Part shown: one piece after another, positions 21,201 through 56,128 of the stretch
How the letters are laid out: every line of letters starts with the position of its first letter
Position numbering within the stretch: position 1 is the first letter of the stretch
NCBI GenBank assembly: GCA_914767715.1
Contig: OU612067.1
Coordinates: 7,132,001 to 7,196,000 of the forward strand
Direction: 5' to 3'
DNA from: Membranipora membranacea
Lineage: Eukaryota > Bryozoa > Gymnolaemata > Cheilostomatida > Membraniporidae
Length of the DNA: 64,000 nucleotides
The notes under the pieces: generated by a model
The model's input: only the letters and a program-made list of their open reading frames with translations
Database searches by the model: none
Told to the model about the DNA's origin: nothing
Translations under genes and position numbers: made by a program

Positions 21201-24200
21201 TATATTATTCCCTTTTTAAACTGGTCAACATCCAAAAGTAATGCTTTGGGGATAGTATGTCCCTATAATTTGTCTGCCCAATAATGGGAAGTAGCTTGTC
21301 ATGGAGCAGACCCACCCCCTTTTTGAAGGTGATACAGTAGGTGTCGCTCAAACCAACTTGGAATGCAAATCATATATTAGATACTCCATCTGGTGACTCT
21401 CAACTCTTCAATATATAATTCAGGCAAGTCAAGTTCAACTTAGAGCCTCTGGTTGTTCTTCTTTCAGGCAATCCTCAAAGTAATCAGCAGTCAATACCAG
21501 TAGTAGCTGTCTCTCCTCAGCCTAAGGTAGCAAAATCACATGTTGATGACTTTATGGGCGTGAGCATCATGCCCACAAGTGTCCCTCATGATTATGAATC
21601 CAAGATTGACTGGTCTCAAGCTACAATCACTCCTCAGCCTACCAGCAAAAGTGGTAAGTGAAGATGATCCTAATCAGATTATTACTATACATTATTTTTC
21701 TTTCCGATTTATCATAAGATAGCTGGTTTTTGCATGTAACAAGTATGTAAGTATGTATAGTGAAGAATCATGTTTTTTTTATACTTGGAGGGCCGTGACT
21801 GTAAGCTAGGTATTTTCCGCACTTAATTGTAGCCTTTCTAAGTTTAGTTGAGTTAACAGTGTCTAGCTGGGAGCTTTCATAACACACACTACAATAACAA
21901 CAAATCACATTTACACACTCTATTGATAGATACTAAGCCTGTAAATCTAACTAATATCTCTGCTGAGCGAGATAACACACCGGCGGTATCCAGACAGACG
22001 AGTCGAGGTGATCATCGTGACCCTTACTCTGATGAGCAGTCCTTGGACCAGTTTGTACATGCTGTCGAGAGATATGTGAAACAGATTGAGACTCTTACCA
22101 AACCATCACTGAAGGGACCCACTCCTCTTGATAAGGAATGGCAGGTATGGTAAATGTCATGACTGACTAACAATTATATGACCTGTTACTGGAATATTTT
22201 GATGTGTGGTACAAATAAATACCCGAATCAAATGAGGAAGTTGCAGCCCATTGATTGATTGTGCAGAAATAATGACATGAGAAAAAATATTTGATTGCTT
22301 TCTTTCAGTGGTGAGCTCGTAACATATACTTAGTCTACGGCTGATAAAATTGATTTTGAGTACTTCTTACGAGTCTAAAGATGGTTTATTTTAATGTATT
22401 GTGCTAAACCGTTCAACAAGCCGTGAATTGTTTGATGTGATATTATAATTTCTTACCTGGTTTCTTCTTACTAGGAAATGTGTGATGAACAGGAGAGAGA
22501 AAATAAGAGACACTCTACAGCTGCTGGTCTCAGTGAATCTACCAGAAACAGACATCAGGATATCTTACCTTGTAAGTCTACTGTTATCCTACAATATAAT
22601 ATGTGTATCTAGTGTAATATACTGTTACCCTTCAATATATACTGTCTGTGTCCAATGCGTCCAATGTTTACATCTTGATAAAGCCCGTGTGTGACCAATG
22701 CGTCTGATAATGAATGAATAATCAGCGCCTGATATTTAAGGTTTTTATGGGCTTGTCTATAATTTGGATCTGAAGAATTGTTGCAAAAACTATCTGCACA
22801 TCAATCAGAAAGTTTATTTCTGGGTCTTCGTAATGAAGCATGTTGATTTCCATAATTGGGTTGCTGAATTTCACTGGGCACCTGAATGCCATGACAGACA
22901 GAGAGGTTGGTATATGCAGGCCTGACAGAAATGGGTATCGGATTAATTCAATGATTTCAGATGACAGGTATCGAGTGATGCTGAAAGATCAAAAGAACGA
23001 CTACATAAACGCCAGCGTTATAGATGTAAGTGCTGTCTGTGTCTGTGATTGAACTGATCACACAAAACCAATATTCAGCCTTTTTCAAGATCCTTTCAAT
23101 TTTGCAGATAGATATGAAATCGTTTGGTCACTATTGATATTGGATAAGGTTAAGGACCAGTTGTTGCGATTCCCAATTACTCAGACAACCAGCATTCCAC
23201 CAGATCATTGTTTACAATGTTGGATGATGTCACATACCAGCTTCTTAATTATTTTGTAGAACCTTCCTCAAGGATGCCCAGTCTTTATAGCTGCACAGGG
23301 CCCTCTAAATCAGACAGAGGCTGACTTCTGGACGATGATCATGCAACAGAAGATTGAGGTACCTTTATGTCTTATCATGATTACATTAAGAGAGTGTAGC
23401 ACATCAAGGAGTCGGAATTTTGTTTTTGACAGTCGATATTGTATAAGGGTGGGACACATAACTTTCATGATTATTAATTGATGTTACCAATCTGAATTCA
23501 ACAGCCTGATTATCCCTGGTTGAACTGTCAAACACCAGTTTTATTTGGAACTATTTTTCGCTTCCATAGGTCGGTACGTAGATCTGAGACTTTTTGTGCT
23601 CAAAAGCTTTGCTCTCTTGGTCATTCAATTCAATTGGTAAGATTTTTTCGAATCGAATACCTCTGAAGAAATATAGTTCTTTCAAGCAGTAGGTGATTTG
23701 GAAACAAGAGCTCTGGCAGGTGTGTCTCATCTCAGCAATGAATGCTGAGATATTCATTTTGGCTGTTTTTAATTGAAATTTTAATATTCGATTTTAGTGG
23801 TGTGTCTCCCTTCTTTATTGTAGTATGTTGTAATGTTATCTCGCTGGAGCGAGCAAGATCATTCAGAGTCTGCTCGGTACTGGCCTCGGGATAGGAACGA
23901 TCGACTCAGCTTCGGAAATCTACTAATCACCCTACATCTCACTAACAACCATAAATACTGGATAGAGAGGAGAATTAACATCACAAATCTCGCAGTAAGT
24001 CCCAGTCTACAACTGTTTTGAGTGTGTATTTTACCTAAATTAAGGAGTATACATGTTGATGCACCTGATAGCAGCCTGAGGGCCCTTTGACTCATCAGCA
24101 AAGATATTTGGCGCTGACTTATTTTTAATGTTGTTAGTATTGCCATGTTTTTACTCTTTTATATCCGTAACCTCATAACTTTGGTATCACCTCGCCGTAT

Positions 24201-33714: not shown

Positions 33715-35497
33715 TTAATCTTGTTCATCTTGTTCATCTTGTTCATCTTGTTCATCTTCGTCATCTTTGTCTCGTAAATAGTAAAGTACTGCCAGCAAAA
33801 TAGCAAGCGATGCGGCAAAAATTCCTGCTGCACAAAGCTTGTTCTCGGAAATCCACATGAGAAGGCTGTCACGATTATCATAGAGGGGAAACAGAAGCAT
33901 GCAAGCCTTACTTACATGGTCGCTTGTATAAAGTTTAAGCAAAGTATTGAAAACCCTTTTGTACAGTTCACCATTGCTCTGGACATGACTGACAGTTATT
34001 TTAGCTTTTTCAGCCGCTGACTGCCATAATTTCTTGGCTTGCTTCTCATCATCAGTTGTAAGATAAGCGGATAAGTCGGTTCCTAATCTATATCCCATAA
34101 TGGCCATCATAACCACCTCCTCCGTGACATCACAGAACAACTTTAGATTTCCGGAGCTATCAAAAAAGTTTGTGAGTGAGCGAATACTTCCCACAAACCC
34201 ATCGTACTTGGCCTCACCACAGGACTGTCTCAGAGACTCTCCCTGGTCACTGATTTTTATTGTGTCAAGGAACTCTCCAAATAGCTTGCAGGCTTTTTTC
34301 CCGCTCTTGTGAAAGTTTGCAAACTTTTTTACTTGCTTTTTAACGCTTTTGTGGAGCTCTGTCATTTGTTCCTGTACAATTCTCACCCTGTCCACCACAC
34401 AGTTTTCGCTTCCTGGAGTCAAGAAGTAATCCTGCAAGTTAATTGGCTTTAGAACCTAGGAGAGAAAAAGAAAATAGTCTGCACTAATGTCTGTAAAAGG
34501 ATAAAACCAAGGAGTATATCCTCCTTGATCAAATCGTGGTCGATCATAGTCAAACTTGTAGGCTCTATGGAAACATTTTTAATCTCTGATGTTATTTTTT
34601 TTGCTCATTTGCACAAACATTATCAATATCATAAAATAATGTGAATTTTTTGTTTAAGAAATAGTAGTAAGTGTTCTTAAACATTGTTCACAAAGTTAAC
34701 AAATGCAATATTTTAATATCACATTGAATACTTTTTTTGTGCAATAAAACAAAGTCATTTACTTGTGGAAACCTTCCGTGGATTAGTGGACAAGAAAGAA
34801 AGCAATTTTGCACTTTTCAAAGAGTTGTCTACCCATTCAAAGAGGGAAGGCAACTAAAATCAAACGCATCTCAATTTGAACATGGATTACTTTGCATCAA
34901 CATCAATATTGATTTTCATGTTATGCTCATGACTACCATATGTTTATGTGTTTACTTCATACTAATAGGTATACCCACACATTCTTCCTCAGATTCCGCA
35001 GCAGAGTTATCTGGTCTACTTTCATCCACTGTGGGAAGGGAAGAGATAAAAATAGATAATAGCACCCTCCCTGATAGCACCGAACAGTTACCAAAGCCGG
35101 GGGGCCGTCGGCCGAGGGTCAAAAGTCTGGAGGGCTTAGACTAGATTAAAGACTTCATTCTTTCACATATGGATAAATGTCGTTTCATATGATGTATGTT
35201 CATCCAAGGGTAAGAGTCTAGAGGTGAGATCACACATTACCTGTATTCATTATGAGGCCTACTCTTGCACCAATGAAGAGAGGAAGTTCATTCCTCGCAC
35301 AGAGTTATCATTTCACCAAAAAGCATCAATTTTGGACAGACATACAGACAGGTTAAAAGATGTCTTTGAAGCATTCTTTGATATTTCTTACCTTTCACTC
35401 CGCAGTCACTGCAGAATCTAGCTCTAGCTGTAAGATAGGAACTGCATTCTGGACATTTTCTTTGTTCCAGTATACCGTCATGATCTTCAACCTGCAT
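33715..35497 (-). CDS. Tail-anchored zinc-ribbon protein, paralogue 2 (3 exons, ~298 aa)
   Basis: Exons 35392-35497, 34979-35028 and 33715-34455 join in phases 1 and 0 to 897 nt. The N-terminus carries a C-X2-C-X10-C-X2-C zinc ribbon (KCPECSS ... FCSDCG, Cys 15, 18, 29, 32). Exon 2 is a short acidic linker (ESEEEC). Exon 3 is a helical domain beginning VLKPINLQDYF and ending in one hydrophobic segment (GIFAASLAILLAVLYYLR, near residues 263-280) and an acidic tail of DEQ repeats. It closely parallels the gene at 36990-38712 in exon structure and sequence, for example the shared PINL.(D/E)YF, VDRV...QMT.L and YDNR motifs. The start at 35497 is the ATG nearest the ribbon; an ATG at 35518 is possible. 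I do not recognise the family. A C-terminal membrane anchor with the zinc ribbon in the cytosol is the natural reading. Confidence 0.75.
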
Positions 35498-36989: not shown

Positions 36990-38712
36990 CTAATCATCCT
37001 CATCTTCGTCTTTAGGTCTTGTGTATCTAAGATAAGCACACCACATCGCTGAAAGGAAAGCTATCAGCAACGCAATGAACCCAACGGCCCTCATTGGGTT
37101 TTCAAAAATCCACAACAGTAGGCCATTCTCCCTGTTGTCATAGATAGCCATCAGCATAGAGCAAGCATTGTACACAAGATCTTGTGTACAGAGCTTGGCA
37201 AGTGCCAGGAATGTCCGCTGGTACAAATCACCGTTATTTCTAACATGGCTGACAAAGATTTGAAATCTTGATTGCAAAGAAGCCATTGCTGTATCTCTGT
37301 CTTGGGCAGTTAGGAAGCTGGCAAGGTCGTTTCCCATTCTATACATCATAACTAAAACCATTACTGTTTCCTCTATCCAATCCAGAAGAAGTTGATGATT
37401 TACAGGGCTCTCAGCCAAACTTGCGACATTTTGTAAAGTCATTATAAAGGTGTCATACTTCAGTTCACCGAAATAGTCGCGCAGAGATTTGCCGTTTCCT
37501 GTTTTAATGGAGGACAGCATTCGATTGAGAAGCTTGATTGCCTTTCTTCCAGTTTTGTGGAATTTTGTGAACTTAATGAGCTGTTCCTTTACTGAGCGCT
37601 GTAGTTTGGTCATCTGTTCTCTGACAAACTTGACTCGGTCCACGATTCCATCTCGATTTTCTGGCATTTCAAAATATTCTCTCAGATTGATAGGTCCTAC
37701 CACCTGTAAAACAGAATTTTGTACATTTTAAAGATTTCTCGAAAGAGGGGGAGGTTGAAGTTTGATATCCTATCTCTGTTTACATTGTTGGCATATCGGT
37801 AGGTAGCTTGGCGGGAGGACAGACAGGCAGGCGGGCGTGCAAGCACGTTCTGCGAGCACGCGAGTACTGTTATTCCCCACCCACCCTTGACAGCTTGCCC
37901 TGGCTAGAGGGCAGAGGGATATTACAAACACTGTGTATCAGGGGGGCTTTGGACTTGGTTATTGGGCCATTGGGGTTCTGCGCAAGTTTGAGAAAAGAAC
38001 TAACACTGACAGTACTCTGATCTTTCTATTTTCATCAGAGTTTTTATGGATCTTAATTGACTTTGATGTATCGACTTTCACAATGACTTGCAACACTTAC
38101 TTGATCACCGTCTCCATCAACATCCTCTTCCTGCGATGAATCAAAGTCAGGACCTGCTGTCTGCTGTTCCACTTGACCAACTGCAGTAAACACAACCCAA
38201 CAAAATCAGCAACATTTCTGCTCCATGTATTCAATTTTTGCACAAATTGACAGGCTTAGATATGTAGGGTATGGTATAGTACAGTAGGTATGATGGGAAA
38301 TTCCTGACAAAAAAGAAACTGGGTCGCACTAATAATCTCGAGCCTGTGTCAGCTTTGGATGCAGAGGTTAAAATTACTGCTTTCGATCATCATCACTCTA
38401 GCGGAGATAGTGGTGAAGTATCCTCAAACACATAAATGCAAGTTAATAGTGACAGACCACTTTTTCCAGTTAAGAACTACAACCAAGTCTGGGCACTATG
38501 CTGTAAAAGAGTAATTACGTAACTTTGCATTGTGGGAATGATGATGACCGACCAGACAAAAAGGTTACGATGTGGAGTTTACCTTTCCTGCCGCATTCAC
38601 TGCAGTATTTGCTGTTAGGACTCAGTAACATCCTGCATTGTGGATTGGAACATCTCTTCATCAAGGGTCTGTCTGGATCCTTGGGACGAACATCCTCACC
38701 TCCAGACGCCAT
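36990..38712 (-). CDS. Tail-anchored zinc-ribbon protein, paralogue 1 (3 exons, ~307 aa)
   Basis: Exons 38583-38712, 38101-38180 and 36990-37703 join in phases 1 and 0 to 924 nt. Residues 21-40 form a C-X4-C-X10-C-X2-C zinc ribbon (RCSNPQC ... KYCSECG). Residues 44-70 are an acidic linker (SSQEEDVDGDGD). From residue 71 (VVGPINLREYF) a largely helical domain of about 200 residues contains KLQRSVKEQLIKF and AIYDNRENG. Residues 276-295 form a single membrane segment (AVGFIALLIAFLSAMWCAY), followed by a charged KDEDEDD tail, typical of tail-anchored proteins of the ER or mitochondrial outer membrane. AATAAA occurs 2 nt after the stop codon on the minus strand, so the 3' UTR may be very short. 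It is a tandem paralogue of the gene at 33715-35497. Function is unknown. The ribbon resembles the small zinc ribbons at the N-termini of signalling and membrane proteins, but I cannot name a family. Confidence 0.75.
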
Positions 38713-40794
38713 TGAGCTCTATTACAAAAGAGACATGGAGTCAAAAATGTACTCTCAAGACTGCGGCAGATCTTGTGTCTACCTTGTGCTGTTTAGTAAG
38801 AAACAGGGCATTGGGCTGCCCCTAAAGAGGGACGTAAGGTGCCCTAAATTCTCATACTGAGAATGTGATACATCCTAGGCAACTAGAATGCATCCTAGAG
38901 GTGAGGCCATAAAAGACCTCCTGACCTGTGTGTGCAGCAAGCTGCCAAAACTGAAACTGACACTAGTCAGCAATTGGCAGTGACACTTGATCTTAGCCTT
39001 TGAAGAACCTGACATATAGGTGTAGTACTATGCAGTCTAAGTGCTCAGACAGCTGCAATGCGAGTGAGTGGCATTACATTATCGATCACTCGTTTGAAAA
39101 TGTAATGCCACAAACTCGCATTGCAGCTGTCTGAGCACATAGACAATGTACGATGAAGATGATGCAACTTACATACACATTCACAAGAAGTCAGCCAATT
39201 TCTAGGGTATGGGTGCTTACTTTTAAGTCACAAAATCCAAAATACGTAAATTGGAAGTACAACTTACCTTATTGTTGCCCTGATACCAACATGTAGCAAT
39301 GTTGCTCAGTATTGTATGTCCTCAAAATGTTTAGAGCTGTATCATATCCCAGCATTCACAAGCTGGGCTAAAGGGCGCTTTCAGAGAAAAATATTATTCC
39401 CCCTTAAGTTGCGGTCTAGCTCGATTGCTTCGGTCGTCTGTTTACATAATCTTTTGATAAGAGTTTTACTTCTTGATTCGATTTGTGATTAATGGCATAT
39501 ATAGGGAAATACCAGTCGGTATTTTCCAAATTGAATAGTGCAGGATTTGCTTGATCGGCTAACGTAGTGATTCATTTTCACTTTCAATTTGCCAAGACGT
39601 ATTATGTTACTTGTAATTTTTGATGGAAAGCATTCATATTACGTACAATGAAGTATTGCGTTTATCTAGCTCAATCACCAGTGAAAAATTAAACTATGAC
39701 CGCTTTATACTCAAATCCTTGCTTTGCATATGTTTCTTAACCGAACGGAAAACCAGGAAAGACAACCAGCGCTGAAAGTTGGATCACTGCAATTTTCACC
39801 TCCTTGTTTTTGGAGGCTTTGTTGTGATTCATATAATATATAAATCAATAAATAATCATTCACTAAATGGTCCTGTTTCTGATATTTGTAAAAGGTGAGT
39901 ATGACAAAGTCCAATCCTTATTATAGGATGCCACATGTTACTGTGTTGTATTACACAGTGAGCCTGTACAGGTGATTGATAATGGATAAACCAGGAATAT
40001 TTTGAGTTATGATAATAGGACACGTACCGTAAAAGAGAATAGATAATCGATGGAAAAACCCAATAGCAAGATGCAACCAGCTTATACAGTATGAGTAAGT
40101 AATACTTCTCTCTTGCTGTGATCTGGTATTTGATTTGATTTAATTCAACGAGAGAAATTATTATCGCAACACTCCTACAGATTAAATTGAGAAATCAACG
40201 ATTCTCCAAGCACCTGTTGCAGACCATTTTATAGCGACTCTAACATGGAGTCAAGATGGACACATGACTGATACAAATGAGCTCATCAAAAACTGAGTCA
40301 ATAATTCTAAACAAAGAGGCACCAATATATGTGGAGGGTTTGCCTTTCTTTGTGGTAATAGTAATAATCTCACATTATGGTATCACACACAAATGACTTT
40401 ATAATGACTTCATTTTTCATCGTATAATATATAAATATGTATAATAATTCAATGATGAAATGTCACTACCAGCTATCCTGACACAGTTTGAGTGTTTAAT
40501 TATAACATACTTGGTTATAGATTATCATTGGATTGAATTAGAAACCTACAGAAATTTAAAAACATCTCTACCCTAAATTGTTACATTCGTGTTTGTATCA
40601 TCAGACTACGCCAGTGGTGATGAAAACAATAATGAAAATCTTCAATCTATGGCTAAGCTATAGAATCCAAAAGTGTCAAGTATTCAGATAAAAATGTTAG
40701 AGGAATAAATAGCAATCTTCAAATCACCATTTGAATGTCAGCTTGTACTGTACAATGTACAGCTTTCTACCCTTGGGCCTGTTGGGGAAAACAG
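38713..40794. other. Intergenic region between zinc-ribbon paralogue 1 and the Roc-COR-Death gene
   Basis: This region holds the promoter side of paralogue 1 and the 3' end of the Roc-COR-Death gene. The only clear structure is the hairpin at 39041-39138. I see no other gene. Confidence 0.5.
39041..39138. repeat. 98-bp hairpin with 36 paired bases per arm
   Basis: The left arm GTGCTCAGACAGCTGCAATG followed by CGAGT, and GGCATTACATT, are perfect reverse complements of AATGTAATGCC and of ACTCGCATTGCAGCTGTCTG followed by AGCAC. Only a 4-nt internal bulge on each side and an 18-nt loop interrupt the stem. It is a fold-back DNA element or, less likely, a small-RNA precursor. Confidence 0.85.
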
Positions 40795-43700
40795 TCAAAG
40801 AGGGAACGCATCTGTCAAACTCCTCAGCTCCTCTGCCAAGCCTAATATATCCAGGGCTTGACATAATTCATTCAGCGTAGCATTGTACCCTGTAAAACAA
40901 CATCAGAAAGAAGATCTTGTGAGGGGCTGTCATCATTCTCATACTTTCTCTGCATTGATTCGCATAAAACCTAGAAAATTGCGCAATCACTCTCGCTTAG
41001 GATAATCATAGAAACCAAGGTTTATGGATCGAAGAAAATTGATGTATCATTATTTCCAAAACCTCATTACATAGACCCCTCTTCCCTTTCATTCCTGATT
41101 ATTTCCTATGCACTTCTGAGTTGTATGCTCAGAACACAGTAGAAGTGTTCGCCACATACATAATATGTTAGTATATTATTATGTTTATGGTGTTTGCACA
41201 ATGACAAATAAAAAAATGGCGCTGTCTCCCTACAACTTACGACTCTGTAACTTAAAAAGATGGTAACACAAAAACTAACCACGGGTGACCACAAAACAAG
41301 ACAGGCTCGGATATGTTGTTATTTAGTAGCTTGTTCACCATCCAGTTACACAGTATGCGTAATAACCTCAGTGTCTTACCCTCAGTCCATGTGTAAATAA
41401 GGTCTACTTTGATTCCATCAGGACAGCAGTCTGAGGTTTGTGTGAAATGCTGGTCTATCAATGTTAGGCTGATGTTCATGAGGTGTGACATCAATGATCT
41501 GAACTTCTCCTCACTCAGATTATCACATAGCCAGCCTGTCACCTCATCGGATACTGCAAAATGTATAATATCTGAGCTAAGGTTTTAAATCCGAGATTGG
41601 AGAAATGGTTGGGGTTGATAAACATATTATCATCAACCTGATGCAGTGCGCATTCAGGAGAACGATATAGTCCTAATCAGCTGATATGGAACTAAAAATG
41701 CTATCATGTCAGCAACTTTCATCAGAAGTCAGTTTTTTTCATATGCGTATGCGTTGGCCTGGCATGATGTCAGGGATGGGTGGGTGTGGGAGTAGACAGC
41801 CTTGGTCAATCCATTCGACAAGAGAGGACAACTCGAAAAGTTAAGTAACAGTATGACTCTGAATATAAACTAAGCCCAAGCTATGTAATCAGTGATTTTT
41901 CAAGCACTAGACATTGTTTTTGTTTTCGTGATACCCACGTCTTACATCTGCCAAAAATCTTCTTTTTGAATCATATGACTACTGCTTTTAACAACCTTTC
42001 TCAACATCTTCGTTCATCAACAACCGTACATACATTTAGATTTGCTTTGTCCAACCATTTGTTTTCATTGAATTGAGTTTGATTTTATTTCGGTTGGTTC
42101 TATTTCTTTTTTGGTTTATTTGCACATCAGGGAGGACATCTTCGGATGATGGTTGATGCAATAAAAATGTATATATACGACATGCCAAACTGACAGTGAA
42201 TCACATGAAATTTGAACAAGAATCCAAAAGTCAAACCAAGGACTACTCCTTGGTCAAACTAACAAAGATGATTGTGTTATTTGTGATAGGTGGCTCTTTA
42301 TCGTAAATCCGAATTCTTGGAAATGATTGACAGGCCTGTGACGTGACCTTGGAGAGGTCACAGCCGACTTACTAAGGCTGTCCCTCTACACACCCCGACA
42401 ACCTGCTTAGGCTACATATACCTTATATGCCTTCCATATTCTTATTTATCTTAGTGCATGATGTGCAATCACAGGGAAAGTAAAAAAAGGGACAACAAAG
42501 ATATCATGCATGGCGCGCACGCTTTGTGATTTTCTGGCACTGTTTAGTTCAGAGTTGCTTCCCCACAGATGGTTAGTCAGCACACCGAAACCCAAATAAA
42601 GTATCAAAGTTATATCTTGTACCTCCAATGTATGGAATTCCGTCTGACGCTACTCTCACTACATATGTTTTGGAATTATCCACACAGTCTTCTCCACAAC
42701 GAACCTGCCTGGACCTGCATGTGTTTTCAATCCTGTGCGTGCTTTTCTAAAAAAATAAGATATTAGGATCAAGAGACCCTTTTTCATAGCCCATCCTTCT
42801 TTATTAACTTTGCATAATCTGATGTATATAATCGCAGACCTGTGGCGTAGTAATGGTAAGATTTCCCTATCACTGCCAACACAGCGCTCACCATTGCACT
42901 TTCTGATACTGATACTAAGGCAAAAGGGTGGAAAGTTAGTGTTTTGTAGAGATTTACTTTTATACTGAGTCATTCCTAAATTAACACATTTTTCCACATT
43001 GGAAACTGTATTCAATTGATTAGTTCATAGTTGTGAGACAGATTTGTGTACTCACCACTTCCTTTCTGTTAGGACAGTTGAAGAAGTTACTCATTCTTCC
43101 GCTGAGTTTTGGGAATGAATATGCTGTAATTTGGCGTATCTCATCTGAAATAAATAATAAGACTCACAGGTAGGTGTGTATGACATGCAGAATTATTAAC
43201 ATCGTAGTTTGATTGTAATTCAACTGTGATAGTTTTGATTTTTGAGTCACTCTACATTTTGCTAGTCTTTGGCTTGACTAGAGCTCACACTTCAAAGCTA
43301 ATTTTGGTTCTAAATCTCTTTTGCTAAGATGTTAGTCAAAAGATGCTATCTGCTTTTTTTATTATTTTAATGACACTGTTCACTTACTAATAACATCCTC
43401 TAGAAGGGTGAGAGATTGTTTGTAGTTGTAATCCGAGCTTGTACGCAGGTAGATGCGGTTGTTATCTCCCCTGTTTATGGCTTTCTTCTCGCAAGCCAAA
43501 GTGAACCATTGAGTTGTAGAATGATCTGTGAACGATGCCCAGTTGTGATAAACTTGCCAATCCTTATCACAATGGTTGGCACAGTGTGAGAGAAGTCGAA
43601 AGAACACAAACTCATGATGGAACTCAAAATCATCAAAGTCAAATATGTGCTCCCACAGCAGCTGGTCAACATCTAGCGATTCATCTGGACATCTGTTGGA

Positions 43701-46700
43701 TCCATGTTTGGGGAGAAGTTGAGGAACAAAGAATTCCTCATTGATAATGAATATGAAGTCGAGCTTTGACATGCTGATGATAAGTGGTTGGTTTTCTAAC
43801 CCAGTGTCATCATAGAACTCTAATACTGAATGTGACTGATAGAACCGCCCAAGGTAAGACTTCAATAGGACTTTATCAGCCCTCCCGCTCTCGTTCAAGC
43901 CTCTCCATTCCATTCCAGTCAGCCTATCTGCTATTTTCTGTTCACCAATAGTGACAATACCTTTCATGAAGTCAATCAAAAACTGGATATCATAGAAGAT
44001 ATAGAAATCACTGGGGTCAGATGAGTGCTCTTTAGCCGATACCAGGAATATCTCCCCTATATGACAAAATAGCTCGATCATACTGCAGAAAACATGTCTC
44101 GGATAATCAGACATATTACGACCGGTGACATTGATGTGGCCATTAAGCAGGAGTTCGAAGGGAGGACAACTCATCTTCTTACACCAGTCACGCTTTTCTT
44201 TTAGCCAACACCAAAAATGGACAGGCACTTGATCCGGAAAACAGCTCTGAACAACATCAGTTGCACAGCTGAGGAAGCTTTTCTTAAGCGTCTCAATACC
44301 CCCATCGTTCAAGTCATCTCGATTTTCTACAGAGATCTCACCTGACTGGCTAACTCCAAAATCTACACATCGGTAAATGTCCTGGTGTTTCTGTATGACG
44401 GATTTATAATAAGTCATTATTTTGTCCTTTTGTGCTCTTGATAAGCCGCAGCTCTCTTCGTGGTTGTGGGTGGCAACAAGAAAAACATTTTTGATGTTTT
44501 TTCTATCAAAAGCATTCTCTTGGCAATTTGAGGATCTCTCTCTCAAGAAGGACTGACATCTTTGCATACAAATAAATTTCAACCAGAATATGATTTCTTC
44601 AAGACATTCGTCAGTCGGAGGTCTGCACAGGTTGGTGCCCATCTCAGCGGCTTTCAGGCTATGCTGCTTAGCTTTTTTCCAACTGAAGACGCATACATAT
44701 ATTCCATAACTTGGTAGAAAAGGCTGGTGCATGTAGTGATACACTCTTTGCCCAGCAAAGTCCCTAATCAGAAATTTGAAGCATTTGTGAAGAGGTTTAG
44801 TTGACTTTGCTCTGACATCTTGTGCGCTCTCTGCCTTATGATTTTTTCTATGGCAGTGCAAATATCGGTGAATTGAATTCACTCTTGAGAGAGTGAGTAT
44901 CAAAAGTATGACAGCTGAGCTCATAAACACATCATTAATGGATGTCAGCGAAAACTCCCCATTCAACTGGAAAACTCCGACAAATATACCAATAAGGACA
45001 CCGGTCAAATCATGGAACAGGAAAGAGCGAACCAAGTCAATACTGATGAGTCCTCTTGTTCCCGCTTGTGTTGAAATCCTGAGTCCGTATTTCCTTACTG
45101 ATAACTGTAGAAGATAACATGTTGTAGCAATAGGGGGAAAGACAAGCCTTGTGCTGATTTTCCATTCAGGAGGGCATTGTGAGAGCAGGATGGCCACAAC
45201 AACTAGCAATGACAAAGAAATCCCCCTTAATCTGTTTGCGAGGAGAAACCCGAATATCGTCGCAAAGCTTACCCCGGACCAGTACAGGAGGGGTGTCAGG
45301 TGAAGCTCGTTCATCATCACTGTCTCGGATGTGTTAGCCTCTATACTGTCTAGGATTGAAACATTTTCCTTCATAAAACTGATTTGTGTGAGTGCTAAAC
45401 CAGCTGCAACCCCTGTGGTGACTCCGAACAGCCCTAGTATCCCTGCTATACCAGCCAAACGGGCTATACTGAGCATTGTGTAAAGCAAATCTCTTGGATG
45501 TATATAGCCATCATTGGAGCCAACCACAATACACTTTGCTGCGTACCCTATGAGTATGTATAGCAGATCAAAACTTCCGAGACTCAACCGGACAGAAGTA
45601 TCATTTTTCCCAAGGCAGGCTAGGCCATAAAATATGGTGAGACATGCAGCCGCAAGTGGTTGCTTTCCATTGGCCATAGACCAAAGACATGTGAGAAGAA
45701 TTAGTGTGTTGGCCAGTAAAATACGAATGAGGTGCAAGACGGAGCCTTTCACTCTTGATGCCTCTTCATTTAGAATCGTGTCAACTCGGTTTGTGATAAG
45801 CTCATCTGTATCAGTGTCGTGTTCGACTTTACTCCATGTTGAAGCCTCAATAACTTGCTCTGCAACAGGTGTAGGGAAAATCGCTGATGTTTGAAGATAT
45901 TCTGTAGGAGTGTGCCGTGATAAGAATTTCTCTCCTATCAAAATCAATGTAATAAGCTGTATTGTTAACATTCACAGCAATTGCTGAAATTCAACGAAAC
46001 AGCAAATCAGATCTGGCCCAGCCGGCAAGGTTTAGCCAGCAACCTTTTGTAGAGGTTGCCAATGGGCAGCTTTATTGTTGGCCAATATCCTCTGACATCA
46101 CCTGTCTTTGATAGGTATGCCAGAGGGAGCCAGATATCCCAATTTCCCAGCAACAGATATAATTGGTTGTAGATGTTTCTGCTTTTATACTCTATTTTCT
46201 TGCCATTGGCGGTTGCAGAAATAACCTTTCTGGACTGACAACACATAGCCAACACTCAAATATTAATGTATTTACCATCTATTAGTATGGCTCCAGCATG
46301 AGAACAGTTTACTCCCCATTGTTTTCGACAGGGCTCTCAACCACTCAGGTTTAGCCCGAGTTACTCAGATTTTTGGGTTCAACTCAGGCTACTCAGGGGA
46401 TTTGAGAATGTAAGCTAAAAACTCAGATTTTGCTCGTTGGCAGAGATGAATAATATATAAACAATGCTAAATGTTGCCTTACAATAATTTATGCCATATT
46501 ATTAATGAATGATCAGGTATTAGATTCTAGTTGTGATAAGCTATGTAAATAATACTGCACTGCCTAAACTAATAATACCAAAGATTATAAATACTCTCAC
46601 TGTGCTGCCTATTCAAGTCATTTATGTGAAATCGATATGGCTAAATTCCAATTTGCATTTGAGAATGCTTTTAAAATTTAGCTTGTAACGAACTTGACAC

Positions 46701-49065
46701 GATTGAATGAATCTAGTCTCTAATTTGAATACACTAATAATAATAAATTCTATTTATGAAACACTTAATAAAATTGTTTAAAAACAATGGTTTCTAAGCG
46801 TTATAGAATATCGACACATTACACCCAGACCCCCACTGAGATGAATAATAAAGATAACATCAAAATTTTGCATGAGAATAATGTGTGGTATTTGTTGTAG
46901 GTATTTTATTTCATTTGTGATAAGCTATGCTCTTATTGAACTGCCAATCCCAGTGATTTGCGAAATAGATTATTGTGTCTAAATAGAAGTTTAGACATGT
47001 TAAAAAAGTGATTTTGCAGGTGAACCGGATAAATCCAGGCAATGATTTCAATAGCATCAAATTACATTGATTATGGCTTTCTACCATGGCGCCTCGACTC
47101 GTCAGCCTTTAAATGAATATTTCTACAACCATCATATTTTAACATCATGGGAATACATTTTCGCCTGTGGCGACGATCTTGGTTAGTCCATATGAATTGG
47201 TTCATCTGGATCAAATCTAAAATTGTTTACGATTTTATGTTTACAAGAAATGCTCTAGGTTTTTATTGATTTACTTGCTATCACAAACATGAAATGTTGC
47301 GAGAAAAGGATGCATATACTTTGTCAATAAAGGAGCTTGTTGCTAGAGTATGGAACTTGCATTTGAGGGCATCGCTCTAAAAAAATTGTGTTTGATGTGA
47401 TGCTCATCAGCAAAACAGCACAATAGTATCGAGGTCGCCTACGTCAAGCCTCAAATTCTTGGCAACATTAAAAACTTTCCTTAGTAATTTCTTGTCTATG
47501 GTACATATGCTCATGTGCAAAACAGGCAGACAGTACATCAAGAGGGAAACTACAAAACCTTTGAACATCATGTAAGCTAATGGCTTTGAACTTAGATGCA
47601 ACATTGTTTTAACAACATACATTCTTTGACTTGCTTTGCCAGCTATTCTTTGCACATAATCTTCAAATATTAGGGGTTTCACCCGACAATATTTCTGTGC
47701 CATCTCAGGCGTACCCTCAGCTGTTTATGCGCAGGGTGTTTTACACCTTTTAAATACCACTATATGACATGCTAATATCAAAACTCAGGTTTCGAATCCT
47801 CCCAGGTTGAGAGCCCTGGGTTTCGATGGTACAAATTTACTGTAGTACCAATCCTAGAGGTCTAGGCTGAGTGTAAAAATGGTTGTCACGGTTAGGTCGA
47901 TGTAATTTGCAGACCAATGTAGCATTTGTCTCCCCTAGCGAAGTGCTTGTTTTTGAGAATGCTTTACATCCAGACACCAAGTAATCAAATAAGACATGAG
48001 CATCCTCAAATAATTCCTGTGAACCAGTATCACATCCAAGAAATTTGAAATAGGCAAATAAGACGTGGCCATTGATTGATTCAATTGCTTCTGGCACCAC
48101 TTAATACGCAACACAACAAGTGGTGGTCAGGAAGTGATACATTTGTTAAATTATGAATTAATTATTCTTGCTAGGTATCTAAATACCAAATGCTAAATGC
48201 TCTTAGCAAGGCAGAAGCACACTACAGACCCCACTCAGCCAGTACCTCTTACTCCCTCTCCCACAGGCCTTCTAGGTAATTTTATAAAATAAATAAATAT
48301 AACAAATAATTTAACGATATAATCTTGATATCGGATAATATTGGATAGAGACAGTTAATAATATCCCTGATATATCCTTCCCTGAGAAGGATATATCAGG
48401 GATATTATTAACCTGTCTCTGAGAAGGATATAAAACCTCTATTAAACTTCTTGAAGAGGTTGCTAAAAATCCCTTTTTGGCAACCTCTTCCACCGGTCCA
48501 TATGGCATATTATTGGCAACAGTGTTCAGCCTCTTCCGGTAACCTCTTTCCAACTCAGTTTAGACAACTATTTGCCCGCTGGGTGGTATGTTACTCCGAA
48601 GAATAAGACAAGCAGTGCTAGTTTGACAGGTGGGAACAAATATCATAATTGGAGGTTTGAAGTTAGCCACAGATTTTGCTTACAAACTCATCCATGCTAC
48701 TTCAATCAACAGCAAATCGCAGGACTCCGGCTGACATAGTTAAGTTAATAGCTTGCTGGACTATTGATGCTAGAACTTGTACTCTAATCTAAAGCGCAAT
48801 CAGCTTTCTTGGCATTGAAGACTTGTTGAGGTGACTAACAAAACTATGGCTTGCACCCACCTGTGAATTTTCGTATTAGATTTGTTTTTCCAGCTGCAGC
48901 TGCTCCAAGAACACAAACAGTCAGATGATGACAATCTTCTTTCCCGTGTTCGATAACATCATTCTGGTGTAGGAATATAGTTTCAATATCGTATATACCA
49001 TCTCCCACATCCCTACCATAGTCCCATGTGTTTCTCGGTATGAAAGTTTCAAACAAAAATGCCAT
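40795..49065 (-). CDS. Roc-COR-Death protein with a polytopic membrane domain inserted in the Roc GTPase domain (6 exons, ~1077 aa)
   Basis: Exons 48861-49065, 43388-45934, 43056-43144, 42623-42746, 41380-41553 and 40795-40889 join in phases 1, 1, 0, 1, 1 to 3234 nt. The start ATG has a strong context (AAGATGG) with an upstream in-frame TGA. Residues 50-68 hold a Walker A/G1 motif (GAAAAGKTNLIRKFTG); residues 77-86 look like switch I (TPTEYLQTSA). Residues about 134-420 contain eight to ten hydrophobic helices. Then come G3 (IRDFAGQRVYHYMHQPFL, about 458-475) and a degenerate G4 (VATHNHE). COR features occupy about 620-915 (FLIDFMKGIVTI, KLDFIFIINEEFFVPQLLP). Residues about 990-1075 form a death domain (DEVTGWLCDNLSEEKF ... 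WTEGYNATLNELCQALDILG). Roc-COR-Death order recalls DAPK1-like ROCO proteins, which dimerise through COR and signal in cell death. The insert and G3 lie in one unbroken exon, so their fusion does not depend on splice choices. Intron 1 (2.9 kb) holds nested transposons. Confidence 0.85.
41985..42178 (+). mobile_element. LINE 3' end (last ORF2 codons plus 3' UTR)
   Basis: Codons for AFNNLSQHLRSS, then FRFALSNHLFSLN and a TGA, are typical of the extreme C-terminus of LINE ORF2 proteins. They are followed by the hairpin-bearing 3' UTR GCACATCAGGGAGGACATCT that is repeated at 4617. The element lies antisense in intron 4 of the Roc-COR-Death gene. Confidence 0.7.
46329..47818. mobile_element. hAT-like DNA transposon nested in TIR element copy A
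   Basis: The element begins CAGGGCTCTCAACC and ends with the exact inverse GGTTGAGAGCCCTG (14-bp perfect TIR). It is flanked by 8-bp duplications GTTTTCGA (46321-46328) and GGTTTCGA (47819-47826), one mismatch apart. CAGGG ends with 8-bp duplications are hallmarks of hAT elements. Copy B of the host element is uninterrupted at the matching site, which confirms insertion. At 1490 bp without a recognisable transposase it is non-autonomous. Confidence 0.85.
47407..47703 (-). mobile_element. LINE reverse-transcriptase C-terminal fragment inside the hAT-like element
   Basis: An open frame contains RIAGKASQRMYVVKTMLHL, then FKGFVVSLLMYCLPVL and IDKKLLRKVFNVAKNL, a pattern typical of the region after the palm of LINE reverse transcriptases. 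It is either a captured fragment or a later insertion within the hAT-like element. Confidence 0.5.
48354..48412. repeat. 59-bp perfect palindrome inside TIR element copy A
   Basis: The arm at 48354-48379 (GTTAATAATATCCCTGATAT then ATCCTT) is repeated exactly in inverse orientation at 48387-48412 around a 7-nt loop (CCCTGAG). Copy B at about 56300-56335 has only one arm-like sequence, so the second arm arose in copy A. Confidence 0.85.
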
Positions 49066-51145: not shown

Positions 51146-51496
51146 AGTACGACCCTCAGTAAACAGCTCTGCTAGGTTGGCTTTGCCACCAGTACGACCC
51201 TCAGTAAACAGCTCTGCTAGGTTGGCTTTGCCCCCAGTACGACCCTCTCTAGGCTGAAGATAGCTATCCAGGAATTCTCTACCCAGGAGTTATCCTCTCT
51301 CGGCTCATTCATGGTGAGTTTGTTTAGCTAGATACCGTTAGCCTGAAAACCAAACCCTAGCCAGGTAACGGCCAGGTGTTCCACCCTTTCGAGATTTCCC
51401 GTACCACAGCCTTTGGCGTCCTCGGGTGGGCATAATTACAAAGGTACGGAGGTTATCGTTGGTGCGGACTCAGCAAAATCTAAAAGCAAACAAACA

Positions 51497-52798
51497 ATGG
51501 CATCAAATACAGATCGACCAGTCGCTCAAGGCCAGTCAGCACGGCCAAGAACTCAGACTACTAGAAGATCGCAGCCCGCTTGGCTTGCCTCAGCTCTGGA
51601 AAGAACTGAACAGGTTCAGATACCTAGTCATAAGCTTGCTGGGCAGAGGCAAGGTGCTAACGATACCCGCCCTCAGCCAGGTCGCTTATTCGAACAATCC
51701 AATATTGTCAGTTTGACGGACCTGTCAGCCAATTTATCAGCTTCCATTGAGCGGAATCATGGCGAGATGATGGCGGCCATGGAAAGAAATAAGGCACATA
51801 CAAAAGAAATACAGGAATACATGGATAGACGGATGACTGACCTGTCATCCATAGTATATGGGTTAGCTAGTGCTGACCCTCAGCATCAGTCATCGCCTAA
51901 ACATAGAGGGCCTGACACCGTTTATCAGACTCTTGCACCTAGTTCTGCAAGTCAGCGTCCTGTGCCTGCTCCTAGGAGACGGCCATGTGAAATTCCAGTT
52001 GTTGACCTGCCAAGAAGAGCCAGAGCTTGTAAACCACTTGGCGACTTGCCTAAGTTTGATGGTTCTGGTGATCTCACCGTATTCAAACTGTTGTTTGCTG
52101 AATGTGTGGAGCTAAACGGCTGGGAGGATGAGAAGATCATCACTCTATGGCTTAAACAGTGCCTAATTGGTGCTGCTAAAGAGTGTATCCTCTATGAGCA
52201 GGTCTCAGATTCCAGGACAGTATTTGAAAAATTAAAGAACAGATATGGTAACCATTTATTGGTGCAAAAATATACAGTGTTGCTAGATAGCCGGAAAAAG
52301 GGGCAGCATGAGTCCATCTCCGACCTAGCCAATGACATAAGGAAGATGGTAGAAGTTGTCTATCATGACTGTGACAAATTTACAAGGGAGAAAATTACCA
52401 TCAGTAATTTCATTCGCTCCTTGCCCAGTGTCTATATCAAATATGAGCTGAATCGGGAGTGCCCGAAAGCTCTTGAGGAGGCCGTACAGAGAGCTGCCAT
52501 CCATGATGTATGGTACGGTCATGACTCGCCCTTCAGGCGTAATCAGAGTCAAATATCTCAGCCTCCTAGATCCTCGCCAGTTGTGGCACTGTCTACAATA
52601 GAGCAAAAGAATGTATCACCTACTATCCCAACCGCTGGTACTCAACCAAGAATAACACGACCGTGTAAACACTGTGGTGCGGCTCATATGCCAAATGTGT
52701 GTCAGCCTTGTCGACACTGTGGAGGCCCCCACTTTGATAACAAGTGTGACCGCCAGGGAAACGGGTTGCCCATTCCCGGACAATCAATCAGGCAGTAA
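51497..52798 (+). CDS. gag: Retrotransposon Gag polyprotein
   Basis: The first in-frame ATG is 51497 (the frame is open from the LTR end). The N-terminal part is basic and disordered, followed by a capsid-like helical domain (FDGSGDLTVFKLLFAECVEL, then FIRSLPSVYIKYEL). Two C-terminal zinc knuckles of type C-X2-C-X3-H-X4-C are seen: CKHCGAAHMPNVC and CRHCGGPHFDNKC. It forms the capsid of the element's intracellular particle. It ends at TAA 52796-52798, and the next frame overlaps it in -1, the usual gypsy arrangement. The gag frame is intact. Confidence 0.9.
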   Translation: MASNTDRPVAQGQSARPRTQTTRRSQPAWLASALERTEQVQIPSHKLAGQRQGANDTRPQPGRLFEQSNIVSLTDLSANLSASIERNHGEMMAAMERNKAHTKEIQEYMDRRMTDLSSIVYGLASADPQHQSSPKHRGPDTVYQTLAPSSASQRPVPAPRRRPCEIPVVDLPRRARACKPLGDLPKFDGSGDLTVFKLLFAECVELNGWEDEKIITLWLKQCLIGAAKECILYEQVSDSRTVFEKLKNRYGNHLLVQKYTVLLDSRKKGQHESISDLANDIRKMVEVVYHDCDKFTREKITISNFIRSLPSVYIKYELNRECPKALEEAVQRAAIHDVWYGHDSPFRRNQSQISQPPRSSPVVALSTIEQKNVSPTIPTAGTQPRITRPCKHCGAAHMPNVCQPCRHCGGPHFDNKCDRQGNGLPIPGQSIRQ

Positions 52799-52800
52799 TA

Positions 52801-53814
52801 GGGAATGGGACTCAGAAACATAAACTGTCTGAAAAGCCAACAAAGGAATTATTGTATCAACATGGCTATGATGTGACAAAAACTGATATGTTTGAGGTCA
52901 CCTCACTGAAACCTGCTAACATTGTTAGAAGAGTTATACAGGTACTCACCTTGCCATATAGTGAACCAGCAAAGGTCACACAGTTCTGTATTCCTAGTAT
53001 ACATGATACTTCAAAGACTCAATTAGTTGATCATAGTCTTGGTACTTCAGTATCTCAGCAGAGAGCTCAGTCTAAAAAGGTAAACATTGAACCGGCCATT
53101 GCTATGGTTAGTGAGATGGGATCTAAGCTAGCAGAATTAGAATTGGAGTCTAGCAACACAGGTCCATCTCCAGGTTATGTTATACCAGATAAGAGTGAAT
53201 TACCTTCCGCAGAGTTATTGTATCAAAAAGGCTACGGAGTGACAAAAACTGATATGTTTGAGGTCACCTCAGTGAAACCTATTAATATTGTTAAAAGAGT
53301 AATACAGGTACTCACTTTGCCTTATAGTGGTCCTGCAAAGGTCACCAGATTTCATGTACCCAGTATGAACGACTCTTCCAGTAGTCGATTAGTGGATCCT
53401 GATATGGATAACCCAGTAGTTCAGCAGCACGCTCAGTCTGACAAAGTAAACATTGAACCGGCCATTGCTATGGTTAGTGAGATGGGATCTAAGCTAGCAG
53501 AATTTGAATTGGAGTCTAGCAACACAGGTCCATCTCCAGGTTATGTTATACCAGATAAGATTGATTTACATGCATCAGGTTTACCTCTTGAAAAAGAGGA
53601 GACAACTCTGAACTTATTATTAGAAGTATTACCATATCAGCAATCAGATCCTTCTGATGATCAATTAATCGATGTAAGAAGAATACGTCGATCAGATTTA
53701 TACTCACCTTATGTACCGGTGGAGGTAAATGGGTACAAAACTGTGTTTTTGCTTGACACGGGTGCTACCACCTCCATATTGAGTAAAGCTAGGTATCCTA
53801 GATGGTCAGTGTGA
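52801..53814 (+). CDS. Retrotransposon spacer duplication and aspartic protease (frameshifted)
   Basis: This frame (-1 relative to gag) begins with two tandem copies of a 122-codon unit (about 52849-53214 and 53215-53580). Each contains KTDMFEVTS, VIQVLTLPYS and SSNTGPSPGYVIPDK. A retroviral-type protease follows, with its active-site FLLDTGATTSIL. A single-base frameshift near 53798 ends the frame with TGA at 53814. The second half of the protease (IGMDFL) is in the next frame. The duplicated unit is not a usual part of gypsy pol. Confidence 0.8.
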   Translation, partial: GNGTQKHKLSEKPTKELLYQHGYDVTKTDMFEVTSLKPANIVRRVIQVLTLPYSEPAKVTQFCIPSIHDTSKTQLVDHSLGTSVSQQRAQSKKVNIEPAIAMVSEMGSKLAELELESSNTGPSPGYVIPDKSELPSAELLYQKGYGVTKTDMFEVTSVKPINIVKRVIQVLTLPYSGPAKVTRFHVPSMNDSSSSRLVDPDMDNPVVQQHAQSDKVNIEPAIAMVSEMGSKLAEFELESSNTGPSPGYVIPDKIDLHASGLPLEKEETTLNLLLEVLPYQQSDPSDDQLIDVRRIRRSDLYSPYVPVEVNGYKTVFLLDTGATTSILSKARYPRWSV

Positions 53815-55465
53815 ACCTGGAAAACCGAAGGGTAAAACTGCAACTGGCAGTCCGATATCTTGTTATGGCAAGCATGAGGTGAATGTCAAGTTGGGCAGTG
53901 AAAACTTGCTAGGACTTATGGAGGTGGCTGACATTACTGAAAATGGTTTCATTGGCATGGATTTTCTGGTGGCATTTGGATGTGTACTGGACCTCAATGA
54001 AATGAACCTCAGAATGCTACAGCAATCTATACCTCTAGTGAACAGTAGTGGTGACAGGCTAGCGTGTGCATGCTACTCAGCTCGGTCAGTGACCATTGAG
54101 GCCTACTCAGAAAGAGTTATACCTATGTATGCTCACACCACCATAGAAGGCGGAGGACTCATAGAGCCAAACTTCAGAGTAGTCGATTCGTACAATCTAA
54201 TTGCATCAAGATGCTACGTGAAAGAGTGTTTGGTACTCAGAGTTGCCAACATAACCGCAGAAGCCATCCACATTGCCCAAGACACCCCAATAGCTTTCAT
54301 CACTGATGGAAACATTATTGACATACATGAACCTGAGGTACTAGACTGGAATGGCACAACCATCCAGAATCGTGATGTCACCATTGACTCAGAATCGGTC
54401 TTGCCAGACCATGTCAAACCCCTATTCGACACCTTACCTGAGTATATCTCAGTTGACAGTAAGTCAAAGATGAGACAACTCCTCGTCAAAAATCAGGATG
54501 TGTTTTCCAAGGATGCATATGACATGGGTTATTGTGATCTGGTTCCTCATGAAATCACGCTCAAACCTGGCACCCAACCAATCAGGCTTCCTCCATATAG
54601 AGTAGGATATCATGCTAACCTAGAAATAGAAAAGCATGTAGATGAACTATTGAAAAAGGGCATCACTGAACGTACAGTGTCACCATATAGTGCTTCTGTT
54701 CTACTGATAGCTAAGAAAGATGGAACCAGTCGGTTTGTCCAGGACTACCGCAAGCTAAATAAAGCAACTTATATTCCATCACAACCCCTACCACGTATTG
54801 ACGACTCACTAGAGGCACTGAGAGGTGCAACTCTTTTTAGCACATTTGACCTTTTATCGGGTTATTGGCAGTGCTCCTTAAGCCCTGACGCTAAGGAAAT
54901 GGTAGCTTTTTGCACCAAAAGCGGAGTCTATACATGGCGTGTACTCGGTATGGGATTGTGTGGTGCTCCAGCCACCTTCGAAAGGTTGATGGAGAAAGTG
55001 TTACAAGGATTGCAATGGCAATCACTACTAGTGTATCTCGACGACATAATTGTCTTCAGTTCAGATGAAGAAACACATCTGACCAGGTTGGATACCATGT
55101 TAGAGCGGCTGCAAAAAGCCAATCTAAAAATCAAAGTGTCTAAGACACATTTACTCAAACAGGAAGTTGAGTTTTTGGGCCATATTGTTAATCAGGATGG
55201 CATTCATACAGACCCAGCCAAAGTAAAGGCCATTCAGGACGTGTCCACTCCTACCTGCATAAAAGAGCTGAGAAGTTTCCTTGGTCTCACAGGGTATTAC
55301 AGGAAGTTTGTGGAGAGGTTTGCAGAGATTGCTGTCCCTCTGTTCGACCTGTTGAAAAAGAAAAACCAGTCAAGGAAACTCGCATGGAATGAGGAATGCC
55401 AAAATGCATTCCAGACATTAAAGGACAGTTTAGCGAGTTTCACATCTCTGTCATTCCCAGACTAG
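53815..55465 (+). pseudogene. Retrotransposon reverse transcriptase, ended by an in-frame TAG
   Basis: The frame contains the end of the protease and the full RT: PPYRVGYHANLEIEKHVDEL, FVQDYRKLN, FDLLSGYWQ, the catalytic YLDDIIVFS, and FLGHIVNQDGI, then the connection region (FLGLTGYYRKFV). It ends SFPD-stop at TAG 55463-55465, where related elements read through into RNase H. The frameshift before it and this stop mean no continuous pol can be made. Confidence 0.88.
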
Positions 55466-56128
55466 ACAATACCTTTCATTTTGGACACTGACTGTAGTGG
55501 TGAAGCTATGGGAGTTGTACTGGCTCAGATTGATAAGGATGGGGATGAAAAACCCATTGCTTTCTTTAGTAAAAGACTCTCAGATAGTCAAAAGAAATAT
55601 CCAGTGACTAAACAGGAAATGCTAGCACTAGTGTCTGCCGTAAGACATTTCCATACATACCTGTATGGGTCAGAGTTTGTATGTCGGGTTGACCATCACT
55701 CTCTGATATGGTTACACAATCTCAAGAATCCACAGGGAATTCTAGCCAGATGGTTGGAGGTCCTGGGTTCATATAAATTTGATGTGATTCATAGACAAGG
55801 TCGCCTGCACTCTAATGCTGATGCTTTATCTCGACTCCCTTCAGCATCGCAGCAACCTCTGAGTGAGGAACCTGAGGATGAATGTGGTTTCACCGTGAGG
55901 TCAGTTGACTTCTCCGTTGGCCTATCCACGGATGAACTAGTGCTGGCTCAAGCTGAAAATCAACATCTAATACCTATCATTGAGAATCTAGGAAAAAGAA
56001 ACAGAAATGATGATAGTATGGTTAAACAAAGTCCCATCATACAACATGACGGTGATGAGGATAGAAAACCTCCTGATTTATTATTGTGGCAAAGTTGGCC
56101 ATCCAGATCAATCAAAAACCCATCATAA
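55466..56128 (+). pseudogene. Retrotransposon RNase H and start of the connector to integrase
   Basis: After the TAG the same frame continues with RNase H: LDTDCSGEAMGVVLAQ, PIAFFSKRLSDSQKKYP, KQEMLALV, VDHHSLIWL and ADALSRLP. It then runs into a connector that should lead to the integrase zinc-binding domain. It stops at 56128, and 20 bp later TIR element copy B begins. No integrase sequence (HHCC or DDE core) is seen anywhere before the right LTR. Confidence 0.88.

Follow-up and report, generated by a model that had tools for sequence, protein, structure and literature searches.

Can the GTPase domain of a ROCO protein be divided in two by a polytopic membrane domain and still be a single domain? 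The question is raised by a locus on the minus strand of a 64,000-nucleotide stretch of the genome of the bryozoan Membranipora membranacea (hereafter the window; contig OU612067.1, positions 7,132,001 to 7,196,000, assembly GCA_914767715.1), where six exons splice in phase into a single frame of 1077 amino acids, from an ATG at 49065-49063 to a TGA at 40797-40795. Profile matches and structural models support the presence, in this conceptual ROCO gene, of a single Roc domain interrupted in its beta2-beta3 hairpin by an insert of ~350 residues that holds some ten hydrophobic segments. A preliminary description of the window had proposed that Roc is split between strands beta2 and beta3. The proposal is now supported by in silico excision of the insert (6/6 copies tested), by the co-occurrence of exons 1 and 2 (7/7 loci), and by the predicted Roc-COR fold of the part that follows the insert.

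All features of the gene lie on the minus strand, and its nucleotide-binding motifs were read in the spliced translation. Exon 1 (48861..49065) carries the start codon, 53 N-terminal residues and the P-loop (G1) part of Roc, with the motif GAAAAGKT (residues 54-61; 48883..48906) that the preliminary description had placed there. The junction with exon 2 has the donor G/GTGGGT and the acceptor TAG/GAGAG (slashes mark the splice sites), separated by an intron of 2.9 kb, and the in-phase join foreseen earlier is borne out, the joined frame reading KFTGEKFLSRHTPTEY. Exon 2 (43388..45934) is an uninterrupted frame of 2547 nt and accounts for the exon of about 2.5 kb that had been said to hold switch I, the membrane stretch and DFAGQ together. 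It encodes the switch-I-like HTPTEY (residues 76-81; 45897..45914); the inserted membrane domain (residues ~134-423; 44871..45740), whose ~ten hydrophobic segments were delineated by hydropathy, a topology model and an AlphaFold2 (AF2) model; the second half of Roc (beta3, G3 to G5; 44241..44801), identified with Pfam after excision and from the predicted fold; and the COR domain (43388..44240), assigned from the predicted fold. The second half of Roc includes the G3 motif DFAGQ (residues 460-464; 44748..44762) and a degenerate G4 motif, THNH (residues 557-560; 44460..44471). The distance from G1 to G3, previously estimated at about 400 residues, measures 406. Exon 3 (43056..43144) encodes the end of COR or a linker, exon 4 (42623..42746) a Cys-containing linker, exon 5 (41380..41553) the first part of a Death-like domain beginning at about residue 989 of the spliced protein, and exon 6 (40795..40889) its end and the stop codon TGA.

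To place this gene among its copies, we searched the window's own assembly (339 Mb, 18 contigs). Exon 2 recovered two fragments and seven copies, complete or almost complete, distributed over four contigs (10 candidates scored); the copies are referred to as C3 (the window), C2a, C2b, C1a, C1b, C1c and C9, and tandem duplication is apparent among C1a-c and C2a-b. At E 0.01, the 69-residue peptide of exon 1 matched seven places in the same 339 Mb (8 candidates scored), each upstream of an exon-2 copy and on the same strand (7/7 loci), a co-occurrence that exceeds chance. Across the seven copies intron 1 spans roughly 0.25 to 2.9 kb; its donor G/GT was read in all seven, and an AG acceptor of matching phase in 6/6, C2b not being located by the anchor used. 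Exons 3 and 4 are present in 7/7 copies (exon 4 of C1c being a weak match, E 0.003), whereas exon 5 was found in 6/7, C1c lacking a match, and exon 6 likewise in 6/7, with a marginal match in C1c (18 residues, E 0.75). Exon 2 of C2b has a frame break near its 5' end and two stops. Judged by these matches, the six exons belong to one predicted gene. Part of the beginning of exon 2 recurs in inverted, decayed form, with stops, at 40150-40302 on the plus strand of the window (45% identity over 51 residues, E 5e-7), and at ~48348-48419, within intron 1, there is a near-perfect inverted repeat recognized by eye, perhaps a small palindromic repeat or a mobile remnant.

The interruption of Roc becomes apparent when profile scores obtained with and without the insert are compared. 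Intact exon 2 scored 18.1 bits against Pfam Roc, under the cut-off of 27, and with the insert left in, the exon-2 frames of 7/10 aligned members matched Roc at E ≤ 0.1. Excision of the insert in silico from the window protein, which joined residues 1-98 to about 448-639, yielded a single match to Roc, scoring 40.0 bits and covering profile positions 2-92, together with a Ras match of 26.2 bits, above its own cut-off. The controls scored 19.0 bits (first half alone), 17.9 bits (second half alone) and 18.6 bits (second half preceded by a shuffled first half). After excision, the Roc scores of C2a, C1a, C1b, C1c and C9 were 34.8, 32.8, 37.1, 39.0 and 36.7 bits, respectively; C2b was left out on account of the frame break in its exon 2. 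Since the excised scores exceed the cut-off of 27, all six tested copies (6/6) pass as split Roc domains. Of the features that define a ROCO protein, a Roc domain with G1-G3 is thus found after excision, and a COR domain directly after Roc is found in the predicted fold, the second half of the exon-2 AF2 model being Roc-COR. The COR domain named in the preliminary description stands on that fold, but not on Pfam, which gave no COR match in the scans of exon 2 or of the excised protein. For comparison, four very similar ROCO-like open frames of the same genome (L005-L008; contig C10, 22.19-22.52 Mb) have a contiguous Roc with only 53 residues from G1 to G3 (counted by eye), in contrast to the ~350-residue split of the window family; their leucine-rich repeat (LRR) part was judged by eye, and their COR scores of 27.4-27.9 bits are under the cut-off of 35.3.

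The insert itself has the character of a polytopic membrane domain. Family-average hydropathy displays nine or ten peaks, and we modeled the topology with our own small dynamic-programming model, in which orientation was unconstrained and from which P0010 was excluded, most of its membrane part being missing. Ten helices with both ends inside was the top reading in 9/9 members under three settings and, with C2a and C2b added, in 11/11 (one setting). Hydrophobicity suggests a helix count of ten, within the eight to ten of the preliminary description. The AF2 model of the membrane part alone reached a predicted local distance difference test score (pLDDT) of 72 and a predicted template modeling score (pTM) of 0.72, and structure comparisons found no confident structural relative, sensor or transporter fold, for it. 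In and around the insert, 68 columns have a residue common to at least seven of nine rows, including Gly-rich and Asn-Asp motifs. Among them, in P0001 numbering (add 56 for that of the spliced protein), are G102, QPL104-106, ND123-124, R128, WG176-177, YW230-231, FP278-279, ND346-347 and much of the GLNPG-ASGLAL stretch at 183-193.

The nucleotide-binding site is preserved in part. The P-loop GKT is kept in 7/7 genomic copies, the switch-I Thr in 5/5 rows of the family alignment (A1) that reach the site (ATE in P0003, PTE or PTK in the others), and DFAG in 10/10 rows of A1, P0009 and P0010 having DFAGH instead of DFAGQ. A G5-like stretch was seen by eye in the alignment. The G4 Asp is lost in most members although the P-loop and G3 are kept: G4 is THAD in P0002 and P0004, and the window copy, with THNH, is without the usual Asp, as compared with THCD in the four ROCO-like copies on contig C10. 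G4 and G5 are described as variable among ROCO proteins in a review (PMC6337361). Because the G4 Asp is gone, the nucleotide preference has probably changed in most members, and guanine specificity is doubtful in most of them, the window copy included.

Residues 368-760 of the exon-2 frame were used to search 5.8 billion proteins, which yielded, apart from the query, nine relatives. The window copy is P0001; four of the relatives, P0004, P0005, P0006 and P0009, match copies of its own genome at 99-100% identity. The others are P0002 (67% identical to C1a), P0003 (66-68% to C2a/C2b), P0007 (59% to C1b), P0010 (64% to C1c) and P0008 (35-40% to the genomic copies); because the assembly's seven copies include none of these five, at least one other species most likely carries counterparts of several copies. 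Searches with the spliced protein and with the alignment returned the query only (~8000 candidates scored in each). For the pair C2a-C2b, the ratio of nonsynonymous to synonymous substitutions (dN/dS; Nei-Gojobori, own script) was 0.185 for exon 1 (63 codons), 0.281 for the membrane part (306) and 0.119 for Roc-COR (485), so that purifying selection acts on all three, as judged from this one close pair. Averaged over all pairs in A1, identity amounts to 53% in Roc G3-G5 and 49% in COR but 33% in the membrane part, which is thus constrained yet changes faster than Roc and COR. Tandem duplication and a faster-changing membrane part would fit a receptor role.

Several observations weigh against the architecture proposed here. 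No exon 1 was seen with those relatives that come from other sources, and the exon-2 AF2 model is of moderate quality (pLDDT 63, pTM 0.39). The C-terminus, which the preliminary description called a Death domain, is better termed Death-like: scores ranged from 15.2 to 22.6 bits over six copies (21.2 in the window copy), reaching the Pfam cut-off of 22.6 in one and staying under it in 5/6, and another family outscored Death in 2/6; C1c was left out of this test because its exon 5 was not found. The window copy may be a diverged family member, because it has lost W176, P186, R297, Q303, P305, P323 and the Cys at 152, among other family-conserved membrane residues. The G4 Asp is absent in 8/10 aligned members. 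As for topology, a cruder hydrophobicity scan returned only 7 segments in the window copy; the AF2 models render segment 5 as a half-helix of 9 residues, so that nine crossings are possible; P0004 and P0007 have small margins; and in P0004, under one setting, an 11-helix reading with the ends on opposite sides ties with the ten-helix one. Permutation of the K/R values among loop columns left the class with ends inside and an even helix number best in 237/300 and reproduced the observed margin in 8/300, so that the orientation is only moderately supported by the charges. An odd number of helices, for instance nine crossings with a re-entrant segment 5, would separate the two Roc halves across the membrane, and a working Roc would not form. 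The half-helix, the moderate permutation control, the cruder scan and the small margins speak for such a topology, whereas the top rank of ten helices in 11/11 members, the conservation of both the P-loop and the G3 half, and a K/R-rich loop before segment 9 and a tail after segment 10 that suit the cytosol speak against it, and we regard it as unlikely. The earlier claim that both ends are cytosolic is accordingly favored by the modeled topologies, tempered by the cruder scan, the half-helix and the permutation control; it is likely that the helix number is even and that the two Roc halves meet on the cytosolic side. That exon 1 is part of a different gene, the exon-2 frame encoding a membrane protein of its own that ends in a Roc-COR-like tail, might be suggested by the 2.9-kb intron 1 of the window, but the two exons stand together on the same strand at 7/7 loci, intron 1 measures only ~0.25-0.5 kb in four copies, and phase and Roc profile run continuously over the splice, which makes this explanation extremely improbable. 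We give equally little credence to the membrane stretch being an in-frame retained intron or a mobile-element insertion outside the protein: it does sit within one long exon without flanking introns, but it is open and alignable in all nine alignment rows that reach it, its hydrophobic pattern is common to the members, its dN/dS is 0.28, and identity between sources is 0.64 and 0.62 in two pairs (0.68 in a third, over a short overlap only).

The best explanation is probably a ROCO-type protein anchored in the membrane through its own GTPase domain. Helix 1 would leave after beta2/switch I and helix 10 re-enter at beta3/switch II, and because these helices adjoin the two switch regions, a change in the bundle could move them. 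In such a protein, the membrane module would sense a ligand, lipid, ion or membrane state and, as an integral regulator, control the Roc state and COR-mediated dimerization; rearrangement of the bundle would be felt by both switch regions, altering nucleotide state and Roc-COR dimerization, and the Death-like domain would be exposed or clustered as the output, for cell-death or innate-immune signaling. This chain of events, from sensor through switches, nucleotide state or dimerization to the Death-like domain, is plausible, though we lean slightly against it. More tentatively still, and as a rather improbable elaboration, the protein could be a one-chain receptor in which a ten-helix sensor in the beta2-beta3 hairpin acts as an intramolecular exchange factor or GTPase-activating protein, with a Death-domain platform as output and relaxed nucleotide specificity in most members. 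The membrane module might instead be a plain anchor for Roc-COR-Death that passes no signal through the switch regions. Structure comparisons, which gave no confident sensor or transporter fold, are in keeping with such an anchor, and from general knowledge of the Ras fold the turn of the beta2-beta3 hairpin could tolerate an insert; about ten segments and 68 shared columns are nevertheless beyond an anchor's needs, and purifying selection acts on the membrane part, to judge by C2a-C2b (dN/dS 0.28), so a plain anchor appears rather unlikely. Doubtful to a similar degree is a pseudo-GTPase, dead to nucleotide binding, in which Roc would be a mere scaffold between the membrane bundle and COR/Death: the G4 Asp missing from 8/10 aligned members and DFAGH in P0009 and P0010 argue for it, whereas GKT kept in 7/7 copies, DFAG kept in 10/10 rows and the variation of G4-G5 reported for ROCO proteins (available text of PMC6337361) argue against it. 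With the Asp of G4 absent and the Death scores low, caution is in order over the coupling of a membrane signal to the switch regions that the preliminary description suggested, and over the putative GTP binding and death signaling.

Elsewhere in the window, a retroelement-like region at 51347-56125 (plus strand) has a Cys-rich Gag-like end, recognized by eye, and Pfam matches to reverse transcriptase and RNase H. Two open frames on the minus strand, at 33718-34455 and 36993-37727 (246 and 245 amino acids), are alike by eye and gave no Pfam match above the cut-off, and an 832-amino-acid open frame at 18721-21216 (plus strand), with a Pro-rich start seen by eye, gave no Pfam match at E 0.01.

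Membrane helices within a P-loop domain are not peculiar to the window family. The KAP family of P-loop NTPases, to which PifA belongs, has a model in Pfam. Its members reportedly carry membrane helices, to go by the title of a 2004 paper by Aravind. KAP NTPases and the window protein are alike in having such helices inside the P-loop domain (in the window protein ~ten segments, between the G2-like motif and G3), but KAP is a different P-loop family, whereas the window protein has a Ras-type Roc, ~ten helices, COR and a Death-like domain. No KAP profile was among the Pfam matches listed, and Roc was the best family in the excised halves. Kidins220/ARMS has four helices in its KAP domain, according to the available part of PMC4632323. 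The preliminary description had known of no described protein with this layout, a claim that held in so far as no ROCO protein with membrane helices inside Roc was among the papers listed by searches of an open-licence library (including the available parts of PMC11378527, PMC9334734 and PMC8195603; subscription journals and curated eukaryotic protein databases lie outside this scope); helices within a P-loop domain do occur, however, in the KAP NTPases. A database entry with the same layout, without a name, may exist. Like LRRK1, LRRK2, prokaryotic Roco, DAPK1 and MASL1, the membrane-split protein has Roc followed by COR; Pfam scans of the exons of the window protein gave no match to LRR, kinase or ankyrin. 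With the DAPK1 group it shares the order Roc, COR and C-terminal Death-like domain (available text of PMC6337361), from which it differs in the membrane domain within Roc, in its borderline Death score and in having no kinase seen before Roc; the latter refers to exons 1-2, exon 1 starting 53 residues before the P-loop and exons further upstream not having been sought. Trichoplax ROCO proteins carry Death and CARD domains, and the C-terminal part of Ectocarpus ROCO proteins is homologous to membrane proteins (both from the available part of PMC4104024). Anthozoan NLRs with 3-5 N-terminal membrane helices likewise place a normally cytosolic immune NTPase at the membrane, but their helices are N-terminal and, in the available part of the source, are not described as splitting the NTPase (PMC5094078).

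As far as the searches reach, this would be the first ROCO protein with a GTPase fold continuous with a polytopic membrane domain, and it would carry the KAP principle, in which a P-loop domain harbors helices, over to Ras-like GTPases. For the LRRK2 field, in which the question is how membrane state controls Roc-COR, a protein with both fused would make the membrane input to the Roc switch directly measurable. If the one-chain receptor is true, a receptor, a G protein and a death adaptor would be united in one polypeptide. The family may represent a kind of invertebrate membrane death receptor.

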